Under the pieces are notes generated by a model. The model saw nothing but the letters and a program-made list of their open reading frames with translations. It had not been told where the DNA came from and ran no database searches. Below, piece after piece: positions 55,453 through 63,405 of a DNA stretch of 64,000 nt; positions within the stretch are counted from its first letter, which is position 1; every line of letters begins with the position of its first letter. Source of the DNA: Rhodopirellula baltica SH 1 (lineage in GTDB: Bacteria; Planctomycetota; Planctomycetia; Pirellulales; Pirellulaceae); assembly GCF_000196115.1 (NCBI RefSeq), contig NC_005027.1, positions 6,444,001 to 6,508,000 on the forward strand, written 5' to 3'. A program made the position numbers and the translations under genes.

Positions 55453-58215
55453 TTAGAACTCTGGTTGAGCGCCGGTTTCTTCGTAGATCGGCAAATGCCG
55501 GTAGTAGACTTCCAGATTCAGTAGGTTCATGGCGGTGACGTACAAGCGTCCGCCATGTGCACTCCATCGATCCGGCACGGGCAATTCAGGATCCCAACTG
55601 CCCGCTTCCGGTCCTCGTTTGATCTGGCTGTCGATCAGGACTGGATTGAGGTATTGATTCCAGTTGTCCCAGTGCTCGCCGCCCATGTGGAACATGACCT
55701 GAGTGGCGTAGTACCAGTAATAGGTGTCTCGTTGTGGCGCCCGATTCGTTCCGATGCTGGGCGGGAACTTAGCGATGTAGTCGGCTGCTGACTGCATGTC
55801 TTCATTCTCCCGGCTCCAACCCGAGTACATTCGCATCAAAATTCCGACCGCAGTCATTGTGGGCGATGGGCGTCGTCCGTGCGCTTGTGCGGGAGTGTTG
55901 GGAGCGAACGGGTTGTATCGGTATCGGTCGCGTTCCGTGGGGCTGGCTTTGGCCAGTTCCAACCAGCGATTGATTCCGGCATAGGTGTCCGGTTCAACAT
56001 CCAGGCCAGACAGCTCGCCGCTTTTGAGTGCCATCATCATCCAACCGGTGACGCTCGTATCACTGCTGACTTGCGGTGTGTATCGCCATCCACCGCGTTG
56101 TTTATGCTGTGTTGCTTCGATGTAGTTGAGGCACATCTGAGCCGGTTCACGCAGTTCGCTGTCTTGTGTCATGCCGTACGCTTCGCACATCGCCAACGAT
56201 GCAATGCCGTGCGAATAGAACGCGACGTTTTGATCGCTCAACGGGTTCTCTCGGCGATACAAATCACCATTAGTGCGTTGGTTATCGATCAGGAATTTCA
56301 GTCCTTTGGCGACAACCGGTGCGTATTGATGTTGGCGGTGTGTGTAGCCAGCACCTTGATACGCCAACAAGCACATGCCAGTTGCGGCGGTGTCAGATTG
56401 CAGCATCACCGCTTCGCCGTGCCCTTGGAGGGACCAGCTGCCGTCTTCGTTTTGCAAGGAAGCGAGATAGGCGAGGCCAAGCTCGATGGCTTCTTCCGTG
56501 GCCGGGCCGACCATCCCGGCGGGAGCTGGTGCGGCGCCACCGTTGGTGCGTTGGACTCGCCGGCTGAATTGCTCCACGGCTGCGATTGACAATCCCGCCG
56601 GTGTGACCGGGCCCCCGACATCACGTCGTTGGCGTGGGCCACGGGTGAGGTCCAAAGCCGCGATTTCCACCGGTTCATCGGATGGGACAATACCGGCCTT
56701 TTCGGCTCGTTCAACGGATAGCCCGGCGGGACCTTCCGGGGCGTTCAGGTCGAAGACCGGATCCGCGGTCATCGCCAATTCGTTCAGTGAAGACTCTGAG
56801 TCGCGGGCTGAGTCGCGTGAGCGAGTGTCGTCGATGAGGTCGCGATCCGCGGCTGCGTCGGATGCTTCTGGATCAGTGTTGTCAGTCGATGCATCGGCCA
56901 GCATCGCTGCGATCGCCCCCGAATCGGGCCCCGGTCCCGTCGAACCGCTTCGTTGTCCAACGCTTCGTCGTTTGGCTGATCGAGGCCGGCTGAGTGCTTG
57001 ATTGGTGGCGTCCGGGATTCCCGCCATCGTGGCCAAGCGCGCAGCTTGTGGTAGATCGCCCTGCCCCGTCGTCGGAGCATTGTTAAGTGCCGCCATGGCG
57101 GATTCACCCGGTGACAGTGTCACGTTTGCGCCCACCGCTTGGCTGGTTCGCTGAACAGGTGCGAGTTCTGGTGTAAGCATCCGCTCGGCGTCGACCTCGA
57201 TCTTCGCGATCGAAACGGTCGGCGGAGTTGGAGCGGCTCCCGCCGCGGATTGCCTGGTCGGTCTTTGGCGTTGGCTTCGTTCGCGGGCAATCCCTGCCGA
57301 TCCAACCGTCGGCAACGATTCCGCCATCGCACGCATTGTCGGCACGGGCGCCGGCGCCGGATCGCGGCTGGGTGTCGGCGCCATATCGGCCGACATGGCG
57401 ATGGACGCTCCGCTACGCTGTCGTTTTGCCGCCGCGGACGTTGATTTCTCTGTCGGCGATTGATCCGCCGATGGTGCCACCGACGTATCAATCTCGGGTG
57501 CTTGCGGTGCCGATTGCGATTGAGGAGCAGGCTCGGTTGGTTGGCGACGTCGAGCCAACCGGGAAGGCGAGTCGGATGGTTGTGGCTTTGCCATTTCTGG
57601 CTGCACGCGTTCCATCAAAAACTTTTCTGGTTCTCGCGGTTGCTCTGCGTTGGGACGCGGAACTTCCAGTCGAGGTGCTGAACGTTTCACCGGCGGCATC
57701 TGTCGTTGTTCGAGAGGGATGACCTGCGACGTTGTTTCTGCGTCGACGGGTTGCGACCAATCCGGAGTCACCGCGTTGGATTCGTCTGGCTTTTGAAACA
57801 GGTATTCAGGAACCGTTTTGCGGATCGGAGATCGGTCCGGCTTCACTCCGGCAAATGCCTCGGGGAAGTAGTGTGGAAAGATCATCCACTGCACCGCCAA
57901 TACGACCAACAACAAGTGCACGAAGATGCTGAAGAGGAAACCGAGCTGAAACGACTTCTGAACGTATTTTGACGCGATCTGGTGCAGCGTGAATGCGGAC
58001 ACAGCACCAATCAAAGGCACCGCAATCACGTAGGTCCACGCGTTGTACATCGGACGTGGGTCATCAAACGACAGATAACCCAAGATGATGTAAAGGATCA
58101 GACCGGTCAACGAAATCAACGCGACGTCGAGCGGCCACATGCGCTCGTCATCGGGATCTGAGATCTCGTCAAATAGGTTAGGGTCTTTACTCAATTGATC
58201 AGCCTGCCGGCCCAT
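55453..58215 (-). CDS. membrane protein with Pro/Ala-rich span and squalene-cyclase-like toroid
   Basis: A 920-residue protein. Three transmembrane helices at about 29-49, 60-80 and 89-113 are followed by a low-complexity Pro/Ala/Gln/Ser-rich region (about 125-570). The C-terminal alpha/alpha-toroid (about 575-915) has prenyltransferase/squalene-oxidase-type repeats: ASLQNEDGSWSLQG, SDTAATGMCLLAY, HKQRGGWRYTPQV, TSVTGWMMMALKS. The DxDD acid of squalene-hopene cyclase is absent, so cyclase activity is unlikely. With the N terminus inside, the span and toroid would be periplasmic. The start overlaps the ExbD-like gene by 17 bases. The layout (membrane anchor, Pro-rich span, distal domain) recalls TonB, with a toroid in place of the TonB C-terminal domain. 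Confidence 0.85.
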   Translation of the reverse strand: MGRQADQLSKDPNLFDEISDPDDERMWPLDVALISLTGLILYIILGYLSFDDPRPMYNAWTYVIAVPLIGAVSAFTLHQIASKYVQKSFQLGFLFSIFVHLLLVVLAVQWMIFPHYFPEAFAGVKPDRSPIRKTVPEYLFQKPDESNAVTPDWSQPVDAETTSQVIPLEQRQMPPVKRSAPRLEVPRPNAEQPREPEKFLMERVQPEMAKPQPSDSPSRLARRRQPTEPAPQSQSAPQAPEIDTSVAPSADQSPTEKSTSAAAKRQRSGASIAMSADMAPTPSRDPAPAPVPTMRAMAESLPTVGSAGIARERSQRQRPTRQSAAGAAPTPPTVSIAKIEVDAERMLTPELAPVQRTSQAVGANVTLSPGESAMAALNNAPTTGQGDLPQAARLATMAGIPDATNQALSRPRSAKRRSVGQRSGSTGPGPDSGAIAAMLADASTDNTDPEASDAAADRDLIDDTRSRDSARDSESSLNELAMTADPVFDLNAPEGPAGLSVERAEKAGIVPSDEPVEIAALDLTRGPRQRRDVGGPVTPAGLSIAAVEQFSRRVQRTNGGAAPAPAGMVGPATEEAIELGLAYLASLQNEDGSWSLQGHGEAVMLQSDTAATGMCLLAYQGAGYTHRQHQYAPVVAKGLKFLIDNQRTNGDLYRRENPLSDQNVAFYSHGIASLAMCEAYGMTQDSELREPAQMCLNYIEATQHKQRGGWRYTPQVSSDTSVTGWMMMALKSGELSGLDVEPDTYAGINRWLELAKASPTERDRYRYNPFAPNTPAQAHGRRPSPTMTAVGILMRMYSGWSRENEDMQSAADYIAKFPPSIGTNRAPQRDTYYWYYATQVMFHMGGEHWDNWNQYLNPVLIDSQIKRGPEAGSWDPELPVPDRWSAHGGRLYVTAMNLLNLEVYYRHLPIYEETGAQPEF

Positions 58216-58621
58216 CTTTGGTGGAAACCGAGTAGTCGCTCACACCGGTGCGATTGCACACATCCATCACATTCACGACCGGCTGAAAGCTGGTGTTCTG
58301 GTCGGCGCGGATCACGACCGTTTGGTTGGTCGGGTTGCTCGCGACCGCTTTTTGCAGCAGTAGTTCGAGCTCTTTCAGCGGGGTAGCTTTCCCGCGGAGG
58401 AAGACCGTTCCATCAGCGTCGATATCAACGACGACCTCGCGAGGTTTACTGGTCATTGGCACGGCGCTGGTTGCCGATGGCAGCACAATGTCGAGCTGAC
58501 GTTCCTCGTCTTCAAATTCGCTGGTGACCAGAAAGAAAATCAGCAACAGGAAAACCACGTCAATCAACGGGGTCAGACTGAGTGTCCCGGCGACGTTGGA
58601 TCGTTTGAGTTGAACAGCCAT
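58199..58621 (-). CDS. ExbD/TolR-family proton-channel subunit
   Basis: A 140-residue ExbD/TolR protein. A single N-terminal membrane helix (TPLIDVVFLLLIFFLVTS) carries the conserved Asp21, the proton-path residue of the family; a periplasmic domain follows (EVVVDIDADGTVFLRGKATP, VVIRADQNTSFQPVVNVMDV). With the upstream ExbB-like protein it should form a motor driven by the proton gradient. It starts 6 bases after the ExbB-like stop and overlaps the toroid protein gene by 17 bases. Confidence 0.93.
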   Translation of the reverse strand: MAVQLKRSNVAGTLSLTPLIDVVFLLLIFFLVTSEFEDEERQLDIVLPSATSAVPMTSKPREVVVDIDADGTVFLRGKATPLKELELLLQKAVASNPTNQTVVIRADQNTSFQPVVNVMDVCNRTGVSDYSVSTKDGPAG

Positions 58622-58627
58622 GATCGA

Positions 58628-59587
58628 TCACGAAGTGGTGACGGGAGGCGGCGAATGAATGGCCATCGGCGGTGGCGCACCATTATCAAGTGGACGCAGT
58701 TGTCCTTCGGCATCCATTCGAGATCGACCGACGAACCGCACCAATCCCGGAGCGATGACGAATGCCATCTCCTCAATACGATGGAACAATTTTGCAATGC
58801 GGTTCTCGAGATACTGAGCCAAAATAGCGGCAGGAATGGCAACGGCCAGTCCAGCCAGGGTGGTCACCAGTGCGGTGTAAATCCCTTCTGACAATTGTTC
58901 GCTGCGGCTGCGATCTGCCGTCAGTGTGCTCGATTCATGGAAGGCAACGATCATGCCCCACACCGTTCCGAGCAGCCCCATCAACGGTGTCGCGGCCGCG
59001 GCGAGTGTCAGCCAACGAACGGGGCCGGCGTAACGATCCGCTTCGCGTTGCAGGGCATCGCTGGCGGTCCGTTCAATATCGCCGAGTGGTTGACCGGTTC
59101 GCATCAGCATCGCCGATATCACACGAGCGGCCGGCGAAGGGTTTTCAACACAAATCTCTTGTGCGGTGCTGGGTGGAAACGTTTCGTGCGTCGCAGCCAA
59201 ATCGCTGATCTGATTGACGAGCGACCGTGGCAGGATCTTTTCAGTGCGAAGCGACAGGGTTCGCTCAACTGACAACGTCACAACCAACATGCTCATCAAT
59301 CCGATCGGAATCATGAAGCGACCGCCGCGAGCGATCAACGACAGCAAATCGATTCCCGATGGTTGGTCAGATCCTGGTTGTTGAATCGGTTCATCGTTCA
59401 TGACCGACTGGATGTCAGAAGCATCGACGATGCCCTCGGTTGCACCCGCCGGTTCCGCAGCGTCCTGAGCCGACACGGATTGCGACAAGAACTGTCCCGG
59501 TACTGCGGTGATCAACAATGCGGCCCACAAGACAGCGATGACTAATGTCGTGCGCTGTCGTCGGCGGTCGTTGGAAAGAAATCTCAC
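58628..59587 (-). CDS. MotA/TolQ/ExbB-family proton-channel protein with signal peptide
   Basis: A 319-residue ExbB/TolQ protein starting at GTG 59587, whose GTGA overlaps the TPR gene stop. It has an N-terminal signal sequence (VIAVLWAALLITAVPG, then SVSAQDAAE) and a periplasmic segment before the three family helices: about GRFMIPIGLMSMLVVTLSVE, LTLAAAATPLMGLLGTVWGM and YTALVTTLAGLAVAIPAAIL. The extra exported N-terminal part is typical of planctomycete and some other ExbB forms. It pairs with the ExbD-like protein downstream. The frame is open to 59743, but that part overlaps the TPR gene. Confidence 0.92.
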   Translation of the reverse strand: MRFLSNDRRRQRTTLVIAVLWAALLITAVPGQFLSQSVSAQDAAEPAGATEGIVDASDIQSVMNDEPIQQPGSDQPSGIDLLSLIARGGRFMIPIGLMSMLVVTLSVERTLSLRTEKILPRSLVNQISDLAATHETFPPSTAQEICVENPSPAARVISAMLMRTGQPLGDIERTASDALQREADRYAGPVRWLTLAAAATPLMGLLGTVWGMIVAFHESSTLTADRSRSEQLSEGIYTALVTTLAGLAVAIPAAILAQYLENRIAKLFHRIEEMAFVIAPGLVRFVGRSRMDAEGQLRPLDNGAPPPMAIHSPPPVTTS

Positions 59588-62500
59588 GGTGCTTTCAGTG
59601 CCTCCGCCCGCTGCTTGGCCTTGGCGGCCAATTCGTGCCCGGGGTGTTGATCGATCACGTACTGGTAAAAATCCTTGGCGAACTTGGCTGCCTTTGCTTT
59701 GGCAGCATCCGTTTGCGCTGACTGCTGGAGCAGTTCCGCACACCGACCCGCTTCAAACCCGCTCTTGGCTTGCCAATTCTTGATGACTGGGTCCGCCTTG
59801 TCCGCCCCAAATCCAAACATGACTCGCTGAAATTCTGGAATCGCTTTGTCGAACGTTTTGTTCGCGAAGTGAATTTCACCCATCATGAACCGAGCCCGAG
59901 CAGCAATTTCGCTTCGGAAATTGTCCGCGACCTCGGAATAGAATTTCAATGCCTTTTCGTCGTCTCCCGCGTTCTGGGCGGCGAATCCGATCTCATAGAA
60001 CACTTGGGGAAGATAGGTTGTGGCCGGGAATCTTTCTCGGAGAGCGTCGTACCATCCAATCGCGTCCTCATATTGACCCAATTGGGCTGCACTTTGCCCA
60101 CCGTGCAGCAGGATCAATTCGCGAACCTGCCGTTCGGCTTTGTCACGGACCGTTTTCGCGGAATCATTGTCGGCTTCAATCTTCTCGCGTGCCTTGGTGT
60201 AGGCCCGCAGAGCCGTTTCGTACTGTTCCTGTTTGAAGCGAGATTCGCCAATCATCATCATCGAATCCAGCAGCAAACCGCCCTGCTGGACTTCGACGTA
60301 TTGACGTTTGAAGGCGGCTTCCGCTTCGGCGTACTTTTGTTGCTTGTAAAAGCACCACCCCAACCGATACAGCGATTTTTCTTTCAGGTCCAAATCATTG
60401 GATTTGTCGGCTGCGATCTGAAATGCTGCTGCCGCGTCGCCCCATTTCGAATTGCGATAGTGATCTTGTCCGACAAAGTAGGCCGCGTCGGCGACCAAGG
60501 CGTTGTCCGGGTATTTCGCGATCAGTTGTTCAAACTTGGTAAGGGCTTGATCATCCTTTCCGCTTTCGCGGAGTGACCAACCGAGTTCGTAAAGCACCTT
60601 GTCCATGTCGGGATAGTCAGGGACTTCGTCGACGATCCGTTGCAAGGATTCGGCCGCTTGAACCGTTTGCGATGCGTTTTGGTCCAACAACGCCAGTTCG
60701 TACAAGGCATGTCCAAGGTTGTTGCCGGTTGGCTTCGAATCCAAGTACGCGTTCAAGTCGTTTCGCGAATCGGCCTCGCGATTCAGATGTCGGTAAGCAA
60801 TCCCTCGCGATAGCAGCGCATCGTCGCTCAACGTGTGATCGGGGTTCTGGTCGATCAGCTCTGAGAAAGACTCGGCGGCACGCTCGTGTTGTTGTGATTG
60901 CAGTTCGGCCATGCCTTTGGCATAGCGAGCAAAAGGCAACAAACCAGCATCCCGCTTGGATGCCAGAATCGGTTCAAAGTATTCGATTGCGGCAGCGTAT
61001 TGCTGTTCGCCGTTGGCCAATTGCCCCAGTTTGTATCGGGCTTGGTCAGCCATGCGGCTTTCGCCATTGCTGCGAATGAGTTCTTTCCAAATGCCCTCCG
61101 CGGCCTCGCGATTTCCTGCGGTCAATTGCGATTGACCGGCCATCAGGAAAGCTTCGTCCGAACGAGCCCACTGTGGCGCAGCCTCTCGGCTGGCCTGAAA
61201 TGTTTTGGCGGCTTGAGCTGCATCGCCACTGGACAGTTCTGCTTGGCCAGCCAGCAGCAATGCCTCGGCCTTCTGCTCCGGCGTATTCATCGCCTCCAAA
61301 TTTTCACGAACCAACTTGGCGGTCTTTGTAGGTTCGCCGGCTGCTTTCCAGGCTGTTGCCCCACGCAAAATCCACGTCGCGAGTTGCGGGTGATCGCGGT
61401 GTTTGGCGTCATCAATCAGTGTTTGGTAACGCTCCGCCGCGGACGATGCATCGCCGGACGCGAGTAAAGCCTCCGCACCGACGAACGAAGCATCCGGTGC
61501 GAGCGGATCACTCGAGAACTTCGATTCGAACGAATCAGCCAGCTTCACGGCTTGTTCGGTGTTCCCAAGTTGAAGAGCAACGAATGCCGCGTTGTAGAGA
61601 GCGCGTGGTGCGAGGGGATGGTCCGAATGTTCGCTTGCGATGGATTGGTATTGTTCAAAAGCATCGTTCAATCGGTCTGGCTGCAATGACAATGCTTCCG
61701 CCGCATCCAGCTTGAGAGCGACAGCAAAGCTGCCCTGAGGACCTTTGGCAATCAATTCTGATGCGACATCGTAGGCCGATTTGGCCGCTTCTGCTGTCCT
61801 GGATGGATCGCGGTTGGCGATGCCCAAATCAATTCGGGCCAGCCAGTGTGCCGATTCGGTTGCGGCGACAGGGTCCGTCCCTTGGAGGACGTCGCGGAAT
61901 CGCGAAGCGGCGCCCGAGAGGTCTCCCGCTTGATAGAGCGTTTGAGCGGAAGCCAAGGTGGCCGCGGCAGCGTAAGGCGATTGAGGGAATTGTGTCAGAA
62001 GCTTTTCGTATGACGCGGACGCTTTCGTTGGATCACCGTCTTGGGCGTAGGCGTAGCCTTGGCGGAAAAAAGAGTAAGCCTTGTCTTCCGCGGTAGCGTC
62101 TGCATTGGTTACGACCGAGTCGAAACGCTCGACGGCTTTTTGCATTTCGCCCTGCAACAAATGCATGTCGCCCATGCGGATCTCGACATCGACTACCAAG
62201 TCCGAGTCGGCGCATGCCTGGAGCAATTGTTGGTAGGACGATTGGGCTTGGTCGTAGTTTTTTTGTTCCTCCAACGCGACGCCTCGAGCGTAGAGAGCAT
62301 CGCACCGCAGCGCGGAACTCGCGATGTCATCGAGCTTCATCATCGCGTTGTAGGACTCGATGGCCTTGTCCAATTCACCGAGTGCGTACTGGGCTTCACC
62401 TCGATAGAAGTACGCTCGGTCGAGCAATCGCGAATCAGGGATTTCTTTGATCAGCGTGTCGTAGGTCGCGATTGATTCGCGGAGCAATTTTGGATCCGCT

Positions 62501-62925
62501 TCTTCGCCTGTTCCGGCAGCGGCGTAAAGGCACCAACCTCGGTTGGACAAGCTTTCTTCGCGAAGGTCGTATTTGGTGTCTTCGAGCGCGGTTTTGAAAG
62601 CTTCGGCAGCAGCTTTCAGATCGGGCGTGTCCTGTTGCATGTAGCAAACGCCCAGGTAGTGCGATGCTTTGGACGCCAGCGGGCTGCTCGGGTATTCCTT
62701 CAGGAATTTCCTCCACGTATCGACCGCCAATCCGATCGCACCGTTGGTTTGGAAGTTCGCCGCGTCCGCATACAGAGCAACAGCCGCGGAATCTTCGACA
62801 GGCTCATCCTGAGCAACCAGGCGATGCGCCGGCCAGTTCGAGGCCGCGATGATCGCTAGCAACAAACCAGCGACGCGGAAGAAACGCGATTGGCCGAACA
62901 ACGGTGTTCGATCGGTGGATGGCAT
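59584..62925 (-). CDS. large exported TPR protein
   Basis: A 1113-residue protein with a signal peptide (FFRVAGLLLAIIAASNWPAHRLVAQ, cleavage after about residue 39). Almost the whole mature part is about 25-30 tetratricopeptide-type repeats, e.g. SKASHYLGVCYMQQDTPDLK, DRAYFYRGEAQYALGELDKA, VLYELGWSLRESGKDDQALT, LYRLGWCFYKQQKYAEAE, in YbgF/BamD style. It should lie in the periplasm as a binding scaffold. Its stop overlaps the GTG of the ExbB-like gene, so stoichiometric production with the motor is likely. In Tol systems a TPR protein (CpoB) also accompanies the motor, which is a suggestive parallel. It lies 51 bases after the DUF1844 gene. Confidence 0.9.
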   Translation of the reverse strand: MPSTDRTPLFGQSRFFRVAGLLLAIIAASNWPAHRLVAQDEPVEDSAAVALYADAANFQTNGAIGLAVDTWRKFLKEYPSSPLASKASHYLGVCYMQQDTPDLKAAAEAFKTALEDTKYDLREESLSNRGWCLYAAAGTGEEADPKLLRESIATYDTLIKEIPDSRLLDRAYFYRGEAQYALGELDKAIESYNAMMKLDDIASSALRCDALYARGVALEEQKNYDQAQSSYQQLLQACADSDLVVDVEIRMGDMHLLQGEMQKAVERFDSVVTNADATAEDKAYSFFRQGYAYAQDGDPTKASASYEKLLTQFPQSPYAAAATLASAQTLYQAGDLSGAASRFRDVLQGTDPVAATESAHWLARIDLGIANRDPSRTAEAAKSAYDVASELIAKGPQGSFAVALKLDAAEALSLQPDRLNDAFEQYQSIASEHSDHPLAPRALYNAAFVALQLGNTEQAVKLADSFESKFSSDPLAPDASFVGAEALLASGDASSAAERYQTLIDDAKHRDHPQLATWILRGATAWKAAGEPTKTAKLVRENLEAMNTPEQKAEALLLAGQAELSSGDAAQAAKTFQASREAAPQWARSDEAFLMAGQSQLTAGNREAAEGIWKELIRSNGESRMADQARYKLGQLANGEQQYAAAIEYFEPILASKRDAGLLPFARYAKGMAELQSQQHERAAESFSELIDQNPDHTLSDDALLSRGIAYRHLNREADSRNDLNAYLDSKPTGNNLGHALYELALLDQNASQTVQAAESLQRIVDEVPDYPDMDKVLYELGWSLRESGKDDQALTKFEQLIAKYPDNALVADAAYFVGQDHYRNSKWGDAAAAFQIAADKSNDLDLKEKSLYRLGWCFYKQQKYAEAEAAFKRQYVEVQQGGLLLDSMMMIGESRFKQEQYETALRAYTKAREKIEADNDSAKTVRDKAERQVRELILLHGGQSAAQLGQYEDAIGWYDALRERFPATTYLPQVFYEIGFAAQNAGDDEKALKFYSEVADNFRSEIAARARFMMGEIHFANKTFDKAIPEFQRVMFGFGADKADPVIKNWQAKSGFEAGRCAELLQQSAQTDAAKAKAAKFAKDFYQYVIDQHPGHELAAKAKQRAEALKAP

Positions 62926-62976: not shown

Positions 62977-63405
62977 CTAACCGCGTGTGCTGACGTAGGC
63001 CATCCTCAACGCGTGCGTGGCTTCGGTCAACATCTTCGATTCGTCGTCGGACAAGTTGCCTTTGGTCTTTTCCGACAACACTTCGAGCGTGTCGATGGAG
63101 TGTTTCGCCATCGGTTTGTCGACACGGCCTTCTTCTTGGCCCGGCATGGGGATCTGGCCCAGTGAGCTCATTCCCTGTGTGAACAACATTGACACCAAAA
63201 CTTCGAAACTGGCCGGTGGGAGCTTGGATCCCGCGGATTCAGCGGAGGCTTCTTTGGTTTCAGCCACAGAATCGCTGCTGGACTCAATTTCGGTTTGGTT
63301 GGCCAGAGTTTCTTTCTCTTTGGCGACTTGTTCTTTCCAATCCGAGTCCACCACGATTTGAGGCGACTCGTCTGTTTCGTTTTCTTTTGGATCAGAGTTT
63401 GTCAT
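62977..63405 (-). CDS. DUF1844 protein
   Basis: A 142-residue protein. The C-terminal half is the DUF1844 domain: LPPASFEVLVSMLFTQGMSSLGQIP, then AKHSIDTLEVLSEKTKGNLSDDE and HALRMAYV. The N-terminal half is acidic and probably disordered. The family is common in planctomycetes and acidobacteria, with no known function. It lies 38 bases after pyrG and before the TPR gene on the same strand, so probably in the same transcript. Confidence 0.9.
   Translation of the reverse strand: MTNSDPKENETDESPQIVVDSDWKEQVAKEKETLANQTEIESSSDSVAETKEASAESAGSKLPPASFEVLVSMLFTQGMSSLGQIPMPGQEEGRVDKPMAKHSIDTLEVLSEKTKGNLSDDESKMLTEATHALRMAYVSTRG

Follow-up and report, generated by a model that had tools for sequence, protein, structure and literature searches.

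An ExbB/ExbD-type operon of Rhodopirellula baltica with a toroid-tipped protein as candidate force transducer

What does an ExbB/ExbD motor do beside a protein that ends in a squalene-cyclase-like ring? The question is raised by four minus-strand genes of Rhodopirellula baltica SH 1, lying in a 64,000-nucleotide stretch (hereafter the window, i.e. positions 6,444,001 to 6,508,000 of NC_005027.1, the single contig of 7,145,576 bases that makes up this genome). They encode a tetratricopeptide repeat (TPR) protein, an ExbB/TolQ-like subunit, an ExbD/TolR-like subunit and a 920-residue protein with an alpha/alpha-toroid at its C-terminus. TonB and TolA are the textbook route by which proton motive force is carried to the outer membrane. 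By analogy with them, the operon probably transmits force through the envelope from the inner membrane outwards, and we consider it likely that it encodes a proton-driven force-transduction system in which the toroid protein is the transducer.

Operon layout and motor subunits

The preliminary description of the window had the four genes overlapping or nearly so, and this was reproduced when the open reading frames (ORFs) were re-measured on the minus strand: the TPR stop and the ExbB start share a 4-base GTGA overlap, 6 bases separate ExbB from ExbD, and ExbD overlaps the toroid gene by 17 bases. The longest open frame of ExbB begins at 59743, the 319-residue product being that of the GTG start at 59587. 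The four-gene arrangement is not due to chance, because it recurs in relatives and in a second paralogous cluster of the same genome (see below).

The identities first given to the three upstream genes were borne out by clear Pfam and NCBIfam matches. The ExbB product matches MotA_ExbB (PF01618, 1.1e-24, 87 bits against a Pfam cut-off of 22.9), its best match in a profile search is TolQ (8odt, 1.2e-17), and its GTVWG and TTxxGL segments align with TolQ, which places it in the ExbB/TolQ/MotA family; residues T208, T242 and T243 are invariant (n=20 sequences). The ExbD product belongs to the ExbD/TolR family (PF02472, 1.6e-31, 109.5 bits against a cut-off of 25.4; top profile match ExbD 7ajq, 1.5e-19), and its proton-carrying Asp, D21, is present in 21 of 21 sequences.

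The TPR protein reaches 257.2 bits on the NCBIfam model tol_pal_ybgF (cut-off 90.1) over 11 stretches, and many Pfam TPR models match it as well. Its N-terminus, judged by eye, resembles a cleaved signal peptide, and the protein may be a periplasmic, YbgF/CpoB-like partner of the motor. It is like CpoB/YbgF of Tol-Pal in having repeats above the tol_pal_ybgF cut-off and tolQR-like genes alongside, and unlike it in being 1113 residues long with many more repeats, in being encoded by the first gene of the operon and in lacking a lipobox visible by eye.

Anchor helices, linker and toroid of the putative transducer

AlphaFold predicts three N-terminal helices in the 920-residue protein, as had been read from the letters, with a mean pLDDT of 76. 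The third carries both the Ser and the His of the S-x3-H signature of TonB/TolA transducers. In 70 sequences, the window included, the His (H100) is kept in 63 and the Ser (S96) in 54, the remaining sequences having Cys, Gly or Ala in place of the latter. A further alignment, of the N-terminal domain, took in 58 of 68 loci plus the window. The His is retained down to about 30% overall identity. More broadly, S-x3-H occurs within a membrane helix in 87 of 128 toroid ORFs that have such a helix before the toroid (66/98 with the N-domain of the window operon, 21/30 of the others) and in 2 of 700 predicted membrane segments of flanking genes. The samples behind this contrast are not independent: the 700 background helices were taken from genes adjoining the toroid in these loci, and near relatives and some genomes present in two collections contributed to the 128 ORFs. 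For two of the latter (that of L207 and the 1019-residue ORF of L208) the reading frame ahead of the toroid seems to be incorrect.

The loop between the second and third helices is net positive in 59 of the 70 sequences, so that by the positive-inside rule the toroid is likely periplasmic if the N-terminus lies inside. A cytoplasmic toroid was judged unlikely on the strength of this loop and of the three helices, which put the C-terminus outside.

Beyond the helices, a short conserved island (P136 61%, Y138 59%, D152 66%, P156 84% and V157 67% in the 70 sequences) may serve as an ExbD-binding 'motor box'. It lies in a Pro/Ala-rich span earlier put at about 450 residues and here delimited to 435, with 12% Pro and 16% Ala over residues 151-560. 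This linker ranges from 394 to 1306 residues in 23 other aligned proteins of the same form and is 217 residues long in the second form (L079) described below; stop-to-stop frames of the toroid proteins measure 822-2282 residues (69 loci, a few frames being ended by contig ends).

Pfam and NCBIfam searches of the 920-residue protein returned only sub-threshold squalene-hopene cyclase matches, and no vWA family was found in it (Pfam at E 0.01). A phmmer search of the whole protein against PDB gave no match, unlike a profile of the toroid, which does find matches there. The squalene-cyclase-like fold proposed for the C-terminal domain was confirmed by a predicted structure model and a fold search. 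The domain was also said to lack DxDD; the motif is indeed absent from the window toroid, and in the 66-row fold alignment (65 of 76 usable loci plus the window, 4 of the 80 loci having been left out for X or a missing stop) it occurs in three rows, at residue 34 in one and at residues 239 and 244 in the others, where a single loop may be concerned. Several of the conserved Q, G and W positions fall within QW-like motifs, and the window toroid has the alpha/alpha-toroid fold with QW motifs of class II terpene cyclases. QW motifs are structural in the squalene-cyclase-type toroid fold. Identity as a catalytic squalene-hopene cyclase was rejected because DxDD is absent. The window protein further differs from squalene-hopene cyclases and other toroids in having one toroid of about 345 residues, apparently anchored in the inner membrane next to a motor. 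The features described so far, together with the PD40-form transducers treated in the next section, are collected in Table 1.

Table 1. Coordinates of the core genes, of the parts of the putative transducer and of two related transducers
Feature	Position	Strand	Basis and remarks
TPR gene	59584-62925	minus	ORF list and family models; first of the four core genes, 1113 residues
ExbB/TolQ-like subunit gene	58628-59587	minus	319 residues from GTG start; PF01618
ExbD/TolR-like subunit gene	58199-58621	minus	140 residues; PF02472
Putative toroid-tipped transducer gene	55453-58215	minus	920 residues; N-terminus with three helices, then Pro/Ala-rich span and terminal alpha/alpha-toroid
First and second membrane helices, residues 27-47 and 59-81	57973-58137	minus	AlphaFold model, alignment
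Third membrane helix, residues 87-116, S96-x3-H100, presumed motor docking site	57868-57957	minus	AlphaFold, alignment
Conserved early-linker island, residues 136-157, P-x-Y ... D-x3-P-V	57745-57810	minus	70-sequence alignment
Pro/Ala/Ser/Arg-rich, putatively periplasmic span, residues 126-560, 435 residues	56536-57840	minus	alignment, composition
Alpha/alpha-toroid domain, residues about 570-912, squalene-hopene-cyclase fold without DxDD	55480-56508	minus	model, fold search, alignment
PD40-form transducers	L183:8636-12640 and L184:6011-9820		TPR-ExbB-ExbD operons outside the class

Conservation of the gene order and variant forms

Many relatives within the order retain the operon. The toroid protein was matched in 40 of 40 relatives searched, and the order TPR-ExbB-ExbD-toroid recurs in the loci fetched from them. 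Conservation was measured on the best 80 of 558 loci, 53 of which could be judged, the other 27 lacking the toroid N-terminus or 5.5 kb of upstream sequence. The neighbours are conserved: ExbD is adjacent to the toroid gene in 50/53 loci, ExbB in 41/53 and TPR in 40/53. Two loci of relatives, L090 and L092, have neither ExbD nor ExbB beside the toroid. A split operon was demonstrated for one of the 12 loci without a nearby ExbB, i.e. L141 of B. marina; in this species and in G160, a TPR-ExbB pair is found away from the toroid locus, and no ExbB match in either genome is better than the one from this pair (2.0e-111 and 8.9e-112, respectively). A larger operon was rejected because only the four core genes are common across the 80 loci: their families occur in 77, 53, 45 and 43 loci, and the next one, an epimerase by eye read in the opposite direction, in 22.

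MotA_ExbB and ExbD are each matched eight times in the genome; an adjoining OmpA-domain gene marks at least one of the MotA_ExbB matches as MotA-like. A quick maximum-likelihood search on 37 ExbBs, with long branches that leave details unsure and with two of the eight own MotA_ExbB matches left out, separates 30 rows, those from the operon, split, second and PD40 forms, from the rest by a branch supported at 99. Split-operon ExbBs nest within the operon clade (Shimodaira-Hasegawa-like approximate likelihood ratio test 98-99), and the four other own motors placed in the tree fall apart from the toroid-linked group.

Several variants share parts of this organisation. The second, paralogous cluster of the R. 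baltica genome lies at about 595-601 kb and encodes a TPR protein, ExbB, ExbD and a 642-residue toroid ORF whose product has two membrane helices with SVALH; similar clusters are present in G160, B. marina, G026 and L157. In family f17 of the same class, the toroid follows the ExbD gene in 6/6 sampled genomes, with one toroid locus each. In two of these (L185 and L186) the ExbD-toroid pair is clustered with genes for a vWA protein, LspA, a TPR protein, ExbB, two ExbDs, a class B penicillin-binding protein and a small membrane protein that no Pfam family matches; a divergent LptF/G gene adjoins the cluster. The vWA protein of L185 has a SALFH helix. Within the phylum and outside the class, G172 and G103 have TPR-ExbB-ExbD-toroid clusters in which PD40 (TolB-like) repeats stand between the transducer helix and the toroid. 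Three motor-free paralogues of the R. baltica genome, L076, L077 and L078, have S-x3-H in a single helix; no S-x3-H helix was found in L080-L083. L076 adjoins an ATP-binding cassette transporter pair and L078 lies near a Mur-ligase-like gene. At L083 (1496-1515 kb), a TPR-like gene and two ExbD genes, without ExbB, adjoin a divergently oriented toroid gene; judged by eye, the toroid product appears to be secreted. In G078, a 2850-residue open frame (L192:1695-10244) ends in toroid-like sequence.

At the scale of the phylum (149 sampled genomes, for which the lists show best matches only and toroid-ExbB co-location was judged by eye), the squalene-cyclase-like toroid family occurs in at least 130 genomes. 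Toroid and ExbB lie within 8 kb of each other in six of the 149 among the matches listed (G000 twice, G063, G103, G160, G172 and G176). No ExbD was seen beside the toroid loci fetched from seven others (G049, whose contig is short, G078, G080, G115, G119, G135 and G169). A toroid found mostly without ExbB/ExbD neighbours, which the preliminary description would have counted against itself, is therefore what the superfamily shows and not what the orthologues show.

Known systems, rival readings and possible roles

The window motor subunits resemble those of TonB-ExbB-ExbD and TolA-TolQ-TolR in their conserved pore and Asp residues, and the transducer resembles TonB and TolA in its S-x3-H helix and Pro/Ala-rich span. 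It differs in its toroid tip, in its extra membrane helices and in having only the first half of SHLS. The TonB/TolA C-terminal fold is not that of the window protein, which gave no TonB_C or TonB_2 match and whose C-terminus is modelled as an alpha/alpha-toroid. Another difference is that the host genome has no match to a receptor plug. An ordinary Ton system was rejected because searches of the genome for TonB_C, TonB_2 and Plug gave no match, while the same searches were positive in 3, 1 and 3 of 14 control genomes, respectively.

A closer parallel is found in the main text of Williams-Jones et al. 2025 (PMC12204202), which proposes vWA-tipped, motor-driven force transducers with no known function in the Planctomycetes-Verrucomicrobia-Chlamydiae group, with a conserved motor-binding His helix, a Pro-rich or disordered linker and genes beside TPR, tolQ-like and tolR-like genes. 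The window operon shares these three neighbours and the conserved helix His. By that text, it differs in having an alpha/alpha-toroid tip and no vWA at the C-terminus, three (in another form two) membrane helices, one ExbD instead of a pair, and a linker of 394-1306 residues against about 100. The same main text mentions neither squalene nor toroid. No paper tying planctomycete ExbD/TolQ to squalene-type proteins, or a toroid to an ExbB force transducer, was found in the open-licence papers searched, and the main text of two planctomycete papers (PMC8567305, PMC10632474) is without ExbB, ExbD, TolQ or squalene. In its manner of working the window system resembles a force transducer; its fold sets it apart from TonB/TolA, and it represents a toroid variant of the kind recently described with vWA tips. 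An undescribed energised envelope system had been suggested at the outset: gene order, His signature, motor residues, ExbB lineage and the likely periplasmic place of the toroid speak for the energised system, and only the toroid version looks new, because a TolQR transducer beside TPR and tipped otherwise than TonB was described in 2025 for vWA in the text cited.

In the proposed mechanism, ExbB and ExbD would form an inner-membrane motor on which the 920-residue protein would dock by the S-x3-H face of its third helix. Its long Pro/Ala-rich tether would span the periplasm and end in the toroid, which may take hold of an outer-membrane, cell-wall or glycan partner. The tether would be pulled by rotation of the motor, in line with proposals for TonB and TolA, and the TPR protein would act as a periplasmic CpoB-like partner. 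Gene order with its conservation, motor residues, helix signature and predicted fold are shown by the analysis; membrane topology, docking, force, partner and TPR role are inferred. The earlier suggestion that the toroid is the distal domain of a transducer is favoured by the S-x3-H helix, the intact motor and the likely periplasmic location. An OmpA-domain protein of the same genome (L210:916-1842, at 1.438 Mb; 308 residues, with a lipobox-like N-terminus by eye) is a possible Pal-like outer-membrane partner.

Several observations weigh against force transduction by this operon. ExbD is missing in 3/53 loci (L125, L129 and L132) and ExbB is not nearby in 12/53, nine of which have ExbD. In 7 of the 40 relatives, same-genus G008 among them, matches reach 261 bits at most, and no first-form operon was present at the best locus in any of the five of these from which it was fetched. 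Motor-less toroid genes are common in the phylum; ExbB from each of the two f17 clusters and from L196 (labelled as a motor without toroid in the tree, yet with a toroid gene in its cluster) falls outside the toroid-linked ExbB group, although the f17 clusters too have a toroid gene nearby, and the PD40-form transducers L183 and L184 have no S-x3-H helix despite their TPR-ExbB-ExbD operons. In the transducer itself, the membrane helices number three and not one, Asn replaces the His in 7/70 sequences, and A107 and M111 occupy the positions where, presuming the spacing of E. coli TonB, the Leu and second Ser of SHLS would be expected.

Could the four genes then be neighbours by history, with a toroid protein that makes no motor contact? 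The large toroid superfamily, often motor-free in the phylum, and three orphan orthologues fit such an account. Unless toroid protein and motor touch, it is difficult to account for the persistence of the last-helix His down to low identity and for the separate lineage of the ExbBs, and we hold a purely historical association to be highly improbable. A membrane-tethered periplasmic enzyme (glycan lyase, epimerase, hydrolase or terpene cyclase), the motor serving another purpose such as substrate feeding, strikes us as very unlikely: DxDD is absent from 63 of the 66 rows, window included, several conserved Q, G and W positions fall in motifs with a structural role, and a plain enzyme would need neither a motor-docking helix nor a tether of such variable length. 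As load of the transducer we favour a process at the outer membrane that depends on proton motive force, either uptake or Tol-like tethering, over catalysis.

Two accounts would specify this load. The toroid protein might replace TolA in a planctomycete Tol-Pal system, drawing a lipoprotein of the outer membrane towards the bud site or stabilising that membrane. The 257 bits of the TPR protein on tol_pal_ybgF, TolQ as best solved relative of ExbB, the TolB-like PD40 repeats in two genomes outside the class, the LspA, penicillin-binding protein and LptF/G neighbours in two f17 genomes and the lipoprotein-like OmpA-domain protein of the genome all point that way. The idea nevertheless seems to us somewhat unlikely: tolB and pal are not among the genes recurrent in the 80 loci, most of which share only the four core genes (TolB was not searched genome-wide), and the toroid differs from the TolA C-terminal fold. 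We also know of no division phenotype. Alternatively, the toroid could pull on an outer-membrane receptor as a planctomycete substitute for Ton and power active macromolecule import. The lack of TonB_C and Plug matches in the genome and the sugar binding indicated by the titles of several toroids of the same fold in the fold search would suit this. According to PMC5394234, uptake of dextran and green fluorescent protein into the enlarged periplasm of Gemmata obscuriglobus is abolished by carbonyl cyanide m-chlorophenyl hydrazone (CCCP; 0/816 and 0/1,294 cells), the authors only speculating there on the route. These uptake data come from other genera, however, CCCP has many effects and no receptor-like family recurs beside the operon in the 80 loci, so that we regard a Ton substitute as unlikely.

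Whichever the load, bacteria with unusual envelopes seem to have built a TonB/TolA-type device tipped by a cyclase-fold ring. The operon is a deletable candidate for how planctomycetes spend proton motive force at the outer membrane, be it in uptake, tethering or budding, and it offers a testable function for a toroid family widespread in the phylum. Long tethers would suit the enlarged planctomycete periplasm, into which G. obscuriglobus takes up macromolecules; the TolB-like repeats, LspA, LptF/G and penicillin-binding protein of related loci point equally to envelope maintenance or growth. A far-reaching proposal, distinctly unlikely in our judgement, is that planctomycetes run a whole class of proton-driven, toroid-tipped transducers replacing TonB, some motor-linked and others sharing motors, with lengthened tethers, which power uncoupler-sensitive macromolecule import across an outer membrane devoid of TonB receptors.

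In PMC2754498, exbB RB12053 and exbD RB12055 are salt-induced in a transcriptome. Proportional interpolation from ribosomal protein L1 (RB12839, 225 residues, 6,922,018) puts RB12053 near 6.498 Mb, and the operon lies at 6.499-6.507 Mb; identity of the two is not confirmed, because the numbering, with exbB before exbD, mismatches the gene order. Finally, a DUF1844 gene (window 62977-63405, minus strand) precedes the TPR gene in the same orientation, at a distance of 51 bases, and, among the loci examined, is also found upstream in L039, L041, L096, L099, L104, L105, L106 and L111 and in no others.

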